In this document: positions 53,866 through 59,833 of the stretch, piece by piece
Layout: each line of letters begins with the position of its first letter
Numbering within the stretch: position 1 is the first letter of the stretch
Assembly: GCF_001189965.1 (NCBI RefSeq)
Contig: NZ_LFLU01000017.1
Location: forward strand, 1-64,000
DNA from: Herbaspirillum rhizosphaerae
Lineage (GTDB): Bacteria; Pseudomonadota; Gammaproteobacteria; Burkholderiales; Burkholderiaceae_D
Direction: 5' to 3'
DNA: 64,000 nucleotides
Position numbers and translations under genes: made by a program
Notes under the pieces: model-generated
Told to the model about the DNA's origin: nothing
Database searches by the model: none
What the model saw: only the letters and a program-made list of their open reading frames with translations

Positions 53866-55488
53866 ATGCCGCAACTCGACAGCAAACTGAACACGCGCAG
53901 CGAAGACTTCCAGAGCAACACGGCGGCGATGCAAGCCATCATCGACGATCTGAAAGAAAAGATTGCCGTCATCGCGCAGGGCGGCGGCGAAACCGCACGC
54001 AACAAGCATCTGGCGCGCGGAAAGTTGCTGCCGCGCGACCGCGTGCAGATGCTGCTCGACCCGGGCACGCCTTTCCTGGAATTCTCGCAGCTGGCGGCCT
54101 ACGGCATGTACCAGGAAAAAGAAGGCAAGGATGCGGCGCCATCGGCCGGCATCATCACCGGCATCGGCCGCGTGGCCGGGCAGGAATGCGTGATCGTCTG
54201 CAACGACGCCACCGTCAAGGGCGGCACTTATTATCCGATGACCGCCAAGAAGCATTTGCGCGCGCAGGAGATCGCCGAGTTCAATCACCTGCCCTGCATC
54301 TATCTGGTCGACAGCGGCGGCGCCAACTTGCCGAATCAGGATGAAGTTTTCCCCGACCGCGATCACTTCGGCCGCATCTTCTTCAACCAGGCCAACCTGT
54401 CGGCCAAGGGCATTCCGCAGATCGCAGTGGTGATGGGCTCGTGCACCGCCGGCGGCGCCTATGTGCCGGCGATGAGCGATGAGTCCATCATCGTCAAGGA
54501 CCAGGGCACCATCTTCCTGGCCGGCCCGCCGCTGGTGAAGGCCGCCACCGGCGAAGTCGTCACCGCAGAAGAGCTGGGCGGCGGCGATGTGCATACGCGG
54601 CTGTCCGGCGTGGTCGATCATCTGGCGCAGAACGACCTGCACGCGCTGTCGATTGCGCGCAGCATCGTCGGCAATCTCAACCGCAGCAAGCCGCAGCAAC
54701 TGGCCATGCGCGAGGTGCAGGAGCCGAAGTATCCGGCACGCGAGCTGTACGGCATCATTCCGACCGATACACGCAAACCCTTCGATGTGCGCGAAGTGAT
54801 TGCGCGCGTGGTCGACGGCAGCGAGTTCGACGAATTCAAGGCGCGCTACGGCGCCACGCTGGTGTGCGGCTTCGCGCATCTGTACGGCATGCCGGTCGGC
54901 ATCATCGCCAACAACGGCATCCTGTTTTCCGAATCGGCGTTGAAGGGCGCGCACTTCATCGAGCTGTGCTGCCAGCGCAAGATCCCGCTGATCTTTTTGC
55001 AGAACATCACCGGCTTCATGGTCGGCAAGAAATACGAGAACGAAGGCATCGCCCGCAACGGCGCCAAGATGGTGACGGCCGTATCCACCGCTGCGGTGCC
55101 CAAGCTGACGATGATCATCGGCGGCAGTTTCGGCGCCGGCAATTACGGCATGTGCGGCCGCGCGTTCTCGCCGCGCTTTCTCTGGATGTGGCCGAATGCG
55201 CGCATCTCGGTGATGGGCGGCGAACAGGCGGCCAGCGTGCTGGCGACCGTCAAGCGCGACGGCATCGAATCCCGGGGCGGCAGCTGGTCGGCGGAAGAAG
55301 AAGCCGCCTTCAAGTCGCCGATCCGCGAACAATACGAACACCAGGGCCATCCCTACTACGCCTCGGCGCGCCTGTGGGACGACGGCGTGATCGACCCCGC
55401 CGATACGCGCATGGTGCTGGGCCTGGGACTGAGCGCGGCGTTGAATGCCCCGATTGAAGAAACGAAGTTTGGCGTGTTCCGGATGTAA
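53866..55488 (+). CDS. liuB: 3-methylcrotonyl-CoA carboxylase, carboxyltransferase (beta) subunit
   Basis: The roughly 540-residue protein has the two crotonase-like carboxyltransferase domains. [21 protein letters not shown] lies near the start, [19 protein letters not shown] and [22 protein letters not shown] in the middle, and [22 protein letters not shown] in the second domain, all typical of methylcrotonyl-CoA rather than propionyl-CoA enzymes. With the alpha subunit it carboxylates 3-methylcrotonyl-CoA to 3-methylglutaconyl-CoA. ATG 53866 follows GAGGA. The usual next gene, liuC (methylglutaconyl-CoA hydratase), is absent. Confidence 0.95.
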
Positions 55489-55686
55489 GCTGGAATCGAT
55501 CTGTCGAGCGCGCAGCCTGAGCGGAGCGGATCGCGATGCTTGTCCCATGAGGGGCGTTTGACGGACCGTTGCAATGGCACCATCTCGCGAAAAAATCTGC
55601 GCCTGTGGAGGCAACAAATCTCTCGGCATTTTGCCCTTGAATACCGGTAGAATTTTGAGCCTCAACAACAAAAAAAGGTGGGGAAT

Positions 55687-57768: not shown

Positions 57769-57820
57769 CGGTTCGTACGCAAATAACACCAGTGAGCCGC
57801 AGGCTCAACGAGGAGACAAG

Positions 57821-59833
57821 ATGTTCAGCAAAATCCTGATCGCCAATCGCGGCGAAATCGCTTGCCGCGTGGCGGAGACCGCGCGCAAGCTCGGCATCAA
57901 GACCGTCGCCGTGTATTCGGAAGCCGACGCGCAGGCCAAGCATGTCGCGGCCTGCGACGAAGCCGTGCTGATCGGCCCGGCGCCGGCCAAGGAAAGCTAT
58001 CTGCTGGGCGACAAGATCATCGCCGTGGCGCTGGCGACCGGCGCGCAGGCGATCCATCCCGGCTACGGCTTCCTGTCGGAGAATGCCGGTTTTGCCGAAG
58101 CCTGCGCCCGGGCGGGGCTGGTCTTCATCGGTCCGCCGGCATCGGCCATCCATGCGATGGGATCGAAGTCGGCCGCCAAGGCCTTGATGGAAAAAGCCAA
58201 GGTGCCACTGGTGCCCGGCTATCACGGCGACAATCAGGAGGCCGACTTCCTGCAGCAGGAAGCCGACCGCATCAGCTATCCGGTGTTGCTCAAGGCGAGC
58301 GCGGGCGGCGGCGGCAAGGGCATGCGCATTGTCGAGAAATCGGAAGACTTCAAGGCCGCGCTGGCATCGTGCAAGCGCGAAGCGATCAACAGTTTCGGCG
58401 ACGACAAGGTGCTGGTGGAGCGCTACCTGACGCGCCCGCGCCATATCGAGATCCAGGTGTTCGCCGACAGCCATGGCGAATGCGTTTACCTGTTTGAACG
58501 AGATTGCTCGGTGCAGCGCCGCCATCAGAAAGTATTGGAAGAAGCCCCCGCACCTGGCATGAGTGAAGAGCGTCGCCGCGCCATGGGTGAAGCGGCGGTT
58601 GCCGCTGCGAAAGCAGTCGGCTATGTCGGCGCCGGCACAGTCGAGTTCATTGCAAATCAGGACGGCTCGTTCTACTTCATGGAGATGAACACGCGCCTGC
58701 AGGTCGAGCATCCCGTGACCGAAATGATCACCGGCCTCGATCTGGTGGAATGGCAATTGCGCGTGGCCTTCGGCGAACATCTGCCCTTGCGCCAGGAACA
58801 ATTGCAGCTCAACGGCCATGCCATTGAAGCGCGCATCTATGCCGAGAATCCGGAGAAGGGTTTCCTGCCGTCGATAGGCACGCTGCGCTACCTGCATACG
58901 CCGCCTGCGGTGCATTTCCGCGTCGACAGCCATGTCCAGACACCGGCGGCGGTGCGCATCGATTCCGGCGTGCGCGAAGGCGATGCGATTTCGCCGTTCT
59001 ATGACCCGATGATCGCCAAGCTGATCGTCTGGGGCAAGGATCGCGATGCTGCACTGGCGAATATGGCAGCGGCGCTGGCGCAGTACCGCATCGTCGGGCT
59101 CGCCACCAATATCGGCTTCCTGCAGCGGCTGATTGCCGGACAGGCGTTCTCTGCTGCGGATCTCGATACCGGACTGATCGAGCGCAACCATGATGCGCTG
59201 TTTCCGGCCCTGCAACCGGCGTCCACGGCCACACTGGCAATGGCGGCCTCGCTGCTGCTGTCGCAGGAAGCGGAACGCGTCGTCGAGACCAATAATCCCT
59301 GGGCGCACACCAGCGGCTGGCGCATGAACGGCAGCCTGCTGCGCACCTTGCAGTTTGCCGACGAGGCGGGCGTGTATCAGGTCCGTATCGAATACCGCAG
59401 CGAGCGGCAATGGGTGCTGCATCGCGACGGCGTGCTGCACACGCTGCGCTTTGACCGGCAGGGAGAGACCGACCTTCGCATCACGCTGGACGATTCCGCA
59501 CTGGCAGGCAATGTGGTGCGCGACGGCGATGCCTTCCACGTCTTCCAGCAGGGCCGCCATGCCGTGCTGACCTGGGATGATCCGCTCGCGCACGCCGGCC
59601 ACAGCGAAAGCGAAGGCGGCCGGTTGACGGCGCCGATGCCGGGCAAGATTGTTGCCGTGCTGGTCGAGAAAGGCCATAGCGTCACCAAGGGCGCGCCGCT
59701 GCTGATCATGGAAGCAATGAAGATGGAACATACGATTGCCGCGCCGGCCGATGGCGTGATCGACGAGCTGCTGTACCTGGTCGGCGATCAGGTGACGGAA
59801 GGCGCGCAATTGCTGGCGTTCACGCCGGGCTGA
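57821..59833 (+). CDS. liuD: 3-methylcrotonyl-CoA carboxylase, biotin-containing (alpha) subunit
   Basis: The 670-residue protein contains a biotin carboxylase domain: FSKILIANRGEIACRVAETA, the ATP loop KASAGGGGKGMRIV, and the RDCSVQRRHQKVLEEAPAP active region. A linker domain follows, then a C-terminal biotinyl domain whose acceptor lysine is in MEAMKMEHTI near residue 630. It loads carboxyl onto biotin for transfer by LiuB. The GAGGAGA site precedes the ATG. Its separation from liuB by two unrelated genes is unusual. Confidence 0.95.
   Translation: MFSKILIANRGEIACRVAETARKLGIKTVAVYSEADAQAKHVAACDEAVLIGPAPAKESYLLGDKIIAVALATGAQAIHPGYGFLSENAGFAEACARAGLVFIGPPASAIHAMGSKSAAKALMEKAKVPLVPGYHGDNQEADFLQQEADRISYPVLLKASAGGGGKGMRIVEKSEDFKAALASCKREAINSFGDDKVLVERYLTRPRHIEIQVFADSHGECVYLFERDCSVQRRHQKVLEEAPAPGMSEERRRAMGEAAVAAAKAVGYVGAGTVEFIANQDGSFYFMEMNTRLQVEHPVTEMITGLDLVEWQLRVAFGEHLPLRQEQLQLNGHAIEARIYAENPEKGFLPSIGTLRYLHTPPAVHFRVDSHVQTPAAVRIDSGVREGDAISPFYDPMIAKLIVWGKDRDAALANMAAALAQYRIVGLATNIGFLQRLIAGQAFSAADLDTGLIERNHDALFPALQPASTATLAMAASLLLSQEAERVVETNNPWAHTSGWRMNGSLLRTLQFADEAGVYQVRIEYRSERQWVLHRDGVLHTLRFDRQGETDLRITLDDSALAGNVVRDGDAFHVFQQGRHAVLTWDDPLAHAGHSESEGGRLTAPMPGKIVAVLVEKGHSVTKGAPLLIMEAMKMEHTIAAPADGVIDELLYLVGDQVTEGAQLLAFTPG

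Follow-up and report, generated by a model that had tools for sequence, protein, structure and literature searches.

In the standard leucine and isovalerate utilization (liu) cluster, the genes follow the order liuR-liuA-liuB-liuC-liuD-liuE. Two reports (PMC5343134, PMC3223726) assign LiuR to the MerR family and describe it as controlling the use of branched-chain amino acids. Here, a stretch of 64,000 nucleotides from Herbaspirillum rhizosphaerae (contig NZ_LFLU01000017.1, positions 1 to 64,000; hereafter the window) was analyzed, which carries a liu cluster without liuC, the gene of the hydratase acting on 3-methylglutaconyl-CoA. The leucine pathway of this strain is very probably complete, with a liuC that is unlinked from the cluster and that had already left it, in an ancestor shared by most of the genus, when the two genes now found between liuB and liuD were assembled in an insertion slot behind liuB. 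The absence of a gene from a textbook catabolic operon does not necessarily make the pathway incomplete.

The liu Cluster and an Unlinked liuC Homologue

On the forward strand of the window, liuA, liuB, liuD, and liuE were found together with a MerR-family regulator through their Pfam and NCBIfam matches. The LiuR-like regulator (49641..50081) heads the cluster, and its NCBIfam MerR-type matches were all below cut-off. The acyl-CoA dehydrogenase gene that follows (50191..51375; Pfam) was named liuA/ivd by position, and its relatives in the genus are 84-99% identical and lie upstream of liuB. Of the two subunits of methylcrotonyl-CoA carboxylase, the carboxyltransferase is encoded by liuB (53866..55488, with an alternative TTG start at 53848; PF01039), which is 84-88% identical to the liuB of 20 loci of the family, and the biotin carboxylase is encoded by liuD (57821..59833; Pfam biotin carboxylase, BT_MCC_alpha, and biotinyl domains), which is 71-86% identical to the liuD of 17 family loci. 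The hydroxymethylglutaryl-CoA lyase gene liuE lies within 62165..63253, where residues 61-359 matched PRK05692 of NCBIfam with 481.8 bits over a cut-off of 246, and its true start is probably near 62345. These identifications of liuB, liuD, and liuE agree with an initial annotation of the window, which had placed the enzymes before and after the hydratase step in it. The annotation had also reported that liuC is not between liuB and liuD, and this was confirmed: a DUF4410 lipoprotein gene (55678..56784) and the gene of an exported alpha/beta-hydrolase (56902..57768), both on the forward strand, are found there instead. The full liuR-liuA-liuB-liuC-liuD-liuE order is also present in loci outside the genus. 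The cluster in the window is like the standard one in its enzymes, its MerR-family regulator, its palindromic sites, and its gene order except for liuC, but differs from it in the two exported proteins between liuB and liuD and in having liuC at a separate locus without an operator.

A LiuC homologue of 263 amino acids was identified on a contig other than that of the liu cluster (C23:266763-267551). The initial annotation had raised the possibility that another enoyl-CoA hydratase serves the pathway and had suggested a genome search for a methylglutaconyl-CoA hydratase. The genome contains ten ECH_1 places, this gene among them, and none of its crotonases matched the cluster region of the window. 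The protein belongs to the crotonase-fold family (PF00378, 171.4 bits with a cut-off of 27) and was the best match in its own genome for all 19 LiuCs of the family that were compared, with 217-252 bits, where the other crotonases of the genome reached at most 125. Its closest named records among the matches listed were from Herbaspirillum sp. RV1423 (90%) and H. lusitanum (87%), and the listings and abstract openings covered by a literature search held no description of a Herbaspirillum liuC. The gene is solitary: gltX and three tRNA genes precede it, and a convergent pfpI and the mmsA-mmsB genes come after it (names assigned by eye). The cluster would thus supply LiuA, LiuB, LiuD, and LiuE, and 3-methylglutaconyl-CoA would be hydrated by the enzyme of this separate locus, between gltX with its tRNA genes and pfpI/mmsAB.

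Two observations weigh against this assignment. With PRK05674, which we take as the NCBIfam equivalog model standing for LiuC, the protein scored 290.8 bits, short of the cut-off of 426; three operonic LiuCs fell below it likewise (261-310 bits), so that this threshold does not delimit the subfamily. In addition, other crotonases among the nine remaining ECH_1 places could share in the hydration step. The presence of these nine also bears on the alternative that a different, broad-specificity enoyl-CoA hydratase performs the step and that the C23 gene serves otherwise, for example in acyclic terpene degradation as an AtuE-like enzyme, and the top NCBIfam match of the C23 protein, itself below cut-off, is named gamma-carboxygeranoyl-CoA hydratase. 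The same name, however, tops the matches of two of the three operonic LiuCs checked and comes second for the third. Only a single liuB-like carboxyltransferase was found in the genome (E<=1e-100), and no second such enzyme came to light for a terpene route; among solved chains the protein scored 226 bits with 4kpk but 118 bits with 4zu2, a chain named isohexenylglutaconyl-CoA hydratase. As the closest relatives of the gene outside the genus are moreover mostly operonic LiuCs, a role other than that of LiuC appears improbable.

Conservation of the Unlinked liuC

Matches to liuC were found in 33 of the 34 genomes of the genus: 31 at 65-100% identity, the genome under study included, and two (G002 and G032) at 48-49%. 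The single genome without a match is 63% complete and is missing liuB too. In all 31 genomes with the former type, liuC lies on a contig other than that of liuB or more than 1.7 Mb away from it. The liuC regions of 20 relatives were fetched, the twentieth of which, G032, carries the other form; at least one of gltX, pfpI, mmsA, and mmsB is adjacent to liuC in the genome under study and in all 19 relatives with the genus form. The 49% copy of G002 sits in a second liuB-liuC-liuD operon, and the primary liu locus of this genome has no liuD (loci L073 and L047). The 48% copy of G032 is followed by liuD, and this liuC-liuD pair lies apart from an 89% identical liuB that has neither liuA nor liuD nearby (L197 and L279).

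Outside the genus, the nearest relatives of the C23 gene are hydratases linked to liuB and liuD. The best 80 of at least 557 confirmed LiuC matches in named genomes included seven from Herbaspirillum, and among the other 73 loci, liuB was within 3 kb upstream in 70, liuD within 3 kb downstream in 65, both in 64, and either in 71. The linkage is also usual in the other genera of the family: of the 121 genomes for which the listed matches included both liuB and liuC, 117 have the two genes no more than 6 kb apart, genomes with unlisted places being uncounted. The four exceptions were three genomes of one genus (g5) and one draft assembly of about 520 contigs. In one g5 genome (G079; L280 and L281), a liuC of the family type is independently unlinked from the cluster.

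The liuB-liuD Junction across the Genus

The gap between liuB and liuD was measured in 29 relatives of the genus, from match end to match end with the stop codon included; three more loci had no liuD in the stretch. The gap was 23-61 bp in 22 relatives, 1.0-1.3 kb in five, and about 4.6 kb in two. The gaps of 23-61 bp hold neither liuC nor the lipoprotein-hydrolase pair. Since liuB abuts liuD in these 22 of the 29 relatives, liuC would have left the cluster before the pair was assembled, presumably in the ancestor of most of the genus. The two gaps of 4.6 kb (G030 and G017) contain biotin-synthesis genes, as judged by eye from translations, for which the gap is too short in the other 27. In two other genera inspected (L163 and L168), biotin-synthesis genes come after liuC; most simply, liuC would have disappeared from this position first and the biotin-synthesis genes later. 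A weakness of the scenario is that the distribution from which the events were ordered is patchy. As a separate observation, bioA, bioF, bioD, and bioB (named by eye) stand ahead of liuD, following either liuC or liuB, in L168 and L163 of other genera of the family and in L071 and L072 of the genus, which places them inside a cluster whose carboxylase depends on biotin.

A remnant of liuC in the gap was searched for by translated comparison with the 19 LiuCs of the family and the C23 protein as queries, the second liu copy of G002 (L073) being set apart. Among the 15 best matches outside L073, at E up to 0.14, none was in the window. These 15 were short and weak and all fell in L043 or L072, with a best E of 4.7e-4; the match in L043 was read as chance because it falls in the frame of the lipoprotein gene of that locus. 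With only such matches among the 15 best, a liuC remnant in the liuB-liuD gap was rejected.

As its second alternative, the initial annotation had proposed that a foreign pair replaced liuC. The pair does fill the interval that holds liuC in other genera of the family, and the sister genome G013, with 99% liuB identity, is without it. Of the deviant base composition that the annotation had ascribed to the pair, the part concerning the lipoprotein gene stood: its guanine-cytosine (GC) content is 57.0% and that of its third codon positions (GC3) 65.8%, against 63.2% and 84.5% in liuB. The hydrolase gene barely stands out (60.7% and 75.4%, against 63.6% and 78.5% in liuD). The lipoprotein gene does look like a later arrival. 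That the pair is a foreign cassette which replaced liuC in this strain is nevertheless very unlikely. The interval is without liuC in all 29 measurable relatives, whether or not it holds inserts, with short weak matches in two only, and 22 of the 29 contain neither liuC nor the pair. In addition, genome G035 encodes a protein 54% identical to the hydrolase of the window between liuB and liuC, and the same placement, with an intact liuC, was deduced from coordinates for every one of the 17 exported hydrolases that occur within 4 kb of liuB outside the genus, in genomes of four genera. The replacement was rejected on the junctions of the 29 relatives and on the other genera. The comparison with relatives for an intact liuC that the annotation had recommended has a divided outcome: a liuC at this site in an ancestor is indicated for the family, in whose other genera the gene is near liuB in most genomes as counted above, but not within the genus, where none of the 29 gaps contains it.

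Between the two genes of the pair (56796..56848, forward strand), the decayed remains of a second liuB 3' end were recognized. Their local score was 29 with the liuB tail of the same genome; among 54 tails compared, the tail of G013 gave the highest score, 44. As controls, the best scores over the same 54 tails were at most 25 for 300 shuffles and at most 34 for 816 other stretches of the window. Such a remnant in this position suggests stepwise recombination. The simplest reading would be that the hydrolase gene once stood directly behind liuB and that a segment with the liuB 3' end and the lipoprotein gene was inserted later, probably by recombination, leaving the decayed tail in front of the hydrolase gene.

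A Probable Insertion Slot behind liuB

The hydrolase, a Peptidase_S9/DLH-like protein with an N-terminal signal-like stretch recognized by eye, matched several Pfam alpha/beta-hydrolase models over cut-off. Its residues S158, D222, and H257 are invariant in five aligned sequences, which include slot members from other genomes (L168 and L042), and they may form the catalytic triad. Hydrolases found behind liuB elsewhere (the L159, L162, L165, L168, and L042 types) share the slot and the fold family with the hydrolase of the window, and were assigned to three subfamilies in a quick tree of a subset that carried a long-branch warning.

Across 195 genomes of the family, at least 125 places of such hydrolases were found at E<=1e-30. 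For 114 of these, the genome also had a liuB among the matches listed. Nineteen of the 114 were within 4 kb of liuB, compared with about 0.2 expected at random placing. Distances were measured from the lower coordinate of one match to that of the other, the table of liuB positions was built from the matches listed, with some second copies left out, and the places in G137 and G082, which are near liuC with no neighboring liuB listed, were excluded. The 19 were distributed over the genera g28 (nine), g32 (five), g40 (two), g1 (two), and g3 (one), and they do not represent 19 independent events because they are confined to these five.

The lipoprotein gene was identified by its Pfam DUF4410 match and by a lipobox, LSGC, recognized by eye. 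Full-length relatives of the lipoprotein occur in two of the 33 other genomes of the genus, G006 and G008 (73% and 55%, both by alignment), in the same slot. Its C-terminal part resembles a C-terminal extension borne by several slot hydrolases, with the matches lying inside hydrolase frames; in the window, this part sits on the lipoprotein. The domain in question comprises about 85 residues, is fused to exported hydrolases in L042, L044, L047, L052, and L072, and is located at 56380-56670 in the window. It had no Pfam match, and a literature search for DUF4410 and lipoprotein found no paper. The region behind liuB is very probably an insertion slot, where different exported alpha/beta-hydrolases, or a DUF4410 lipoprotein that has a domain in common with some of them, settle repeatedly. 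The recurrence of exported hydrolases of three subfamilies right behind liuB suggests a possible link between extracellular hydrolysis and the catabolism of branched-chain acids.

Origin of the Unlinked liuC

The LiuC of H. rhizosphaerae belongs to the same crotonase subfamily as the native LiuCs of other genera, whose genes lie behind liuB, but shares only 47-52% identity with 19 of them from the family, at a liuB identity of 84-88%. The comparison included 19 LiuCs instead of 20, with G037 of g5 having no LiuC in the fetched stretch. Among pairs of family members with liuB identities of 83-90%, LiuC identity had a median of 70% and a range of 51-79% (n=147). LiuCs from gammaproteobacterial operons, those of Moraxellaceae and Microbulbifer (L206, L207, and L209), are 56-60% identical to the C23 protein over nearly the full length, and the segment LSEV.LGL.PA.ISPYV is common to the aligned LiuCs from within and outside the genus. 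The genes of these operons lie between liuB and liuD, unlike the liuC of Herbaspirillum, which is alone beside gltX and tRNA genes.

In two trees, the LiuC of the genus grouped with those of Moraxellaceae and of genomes from another order of the same Genome Taxonomy Database (GTDB) class, with supports of 99/96 and 91/90. The first contained 91 rows, with 17 of the 31 genus rows and 27 of the 73 outside loci, after three rows and five outgroup paralogues had been dropped; the second contained 69 rows (23 of the 91 dropped and one g5 row added), and its bootstrap was unsettled. The liuB tree placed the genus among the genera of its family, with several forks being weak. A nesting of the genus LiuC within the family was borderline rejected by an approximately unbiased (AU) test (p 0.048). 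Together, these results favor a foreign origin of the moved liuC to a modest degree, as a gammaproteobacterial-type gene that would have replaced the native one.

The trees also provided evidence against a foreign origin. AU tests in which the LiuCs of the genus and of the family were held together as one group gave p 0.086, 0.574, and 0.285, none of which is rejected, and in one test the constrained tree outscored the quick free tree after the long-branch sequences L174 and L105 had been dropped, a step taken once the first result was known. The unlinked liuC could be a native gene of the family that moved without replacement and is merely fast-diverging. Two precedents exist: a LiuC that has diverged to a comparable degree occurs on a long branch, but at the native site, in G034 of the family, and in g5 a LiuC of native type has become unlinked from the cluster, the single g5 copy in the tree (G079) being of the family type. 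The low identity to the family, the grouping with LiuCs from outside it, and the borderline rejection of nesting argue against this account, as does the divergence within the genus, which is not unusually fast (LiuC 65-66% at liuB 84-85%). Such a native gene is conceivable but doubtful. As a side observation, a contig labelled as a Pedobacter metagenome-assembled genome (L205) contains a liu operon; its liuB and its LiuC both fall with those of Moraxellaceae, which may reflect a binning error.

Putative LiuR Operators

A perfect palindrome, TTTACGTTAACGTAAA (49566..49581), lies upstream of liuR as a putative LiuR operator and is the best site of its kind in the genome. It recurs with no or one mismatch in 27 of the 28 genus loci that had data, the exception being L047, where the stretch is cut. 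A second palindrome and putative operator, TTGACGTTAACGTAAA (50130..50145), lies upstream of liuA/ivd, is the second-best site in the genome, and recurs with up to three mismatches in 20 of the 30 genus loci that had data. Fewer than two mismatches occurred at these two sites only. With up to three mismatches allowed, five places in the genome matched the operator pattern compared with 15 for a reversed control, which speaks against the assignment of weaker sites; because the pattern was no commoner than the control at this level, only sites with zero or one mismatch were counted. A site with two mismatches on contig C2 falls inside a 500-codon frame, and none of the five places is on the contig of liuC. 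Upstream of liuC, no LiuR-like operator was found: in each of 20 loci, the closest match in the 600 bp ahead of the gene deviates from the pattern at 5-8 positions, like the best matches in 293 of 300 random stretches. The moved liuC is probably outside the LiuR regulon. In L071 (G030), a long inverted repeat (TAGGGCCTGTTCACACTTAATTTAGGAG...) was seen between the operator and liuR.

Judged from sequence comparison, the pathway is ordinary and apparently complete, with an unusual layout that is genus-wide, and it illustrates clearly how a single enzyme gene has departed from its operon, and probably from the regulon too, across a genus. What remains of interest is the apparent escape from the regulon and the hydrolase slot. 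A broader scenario would combine the two: most of Herbaspirillum would have swapped the operonic liuC for a gammaproteobacterial-type liuC outside LiuR control, so that one middle step of leucine degradation would be expressed independently of the others, and the hotspot beside liuB would recruit exported hydrolases that release branched-chain acids outside the cell and feed the pathway. This combined scenario is speculative and rather unlikely as a whole.

Other Genes of the Cluster

The cluster in the window further differs from the standard one in five interleaved genes, all on the forward strand. Three of them lie between liuA and liuB: an acetyl-CoA acetyltransferase (thiolase) identified by domain library matches (51588..52781), a DsbA-like thioredoxin-fold protein identified by Pfam (52800..53411), and a YchJ-like protein over cut-off in Pfam and below cut-off in NCBIfam (53411..53839). 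Between liuD and liuE, a metallo-beta-lactamase-fold hydrolase (59844..60779), similarly over cut-off in Pfam and below cut-off in NCBIfam, is followed by a GhrA-like 2-hydroxyacid dehydrogenase (60769..61770), which was identified by Pfam and scored 374.7 bits with the NCBIfam GhrA model, below its cut-off of 403.

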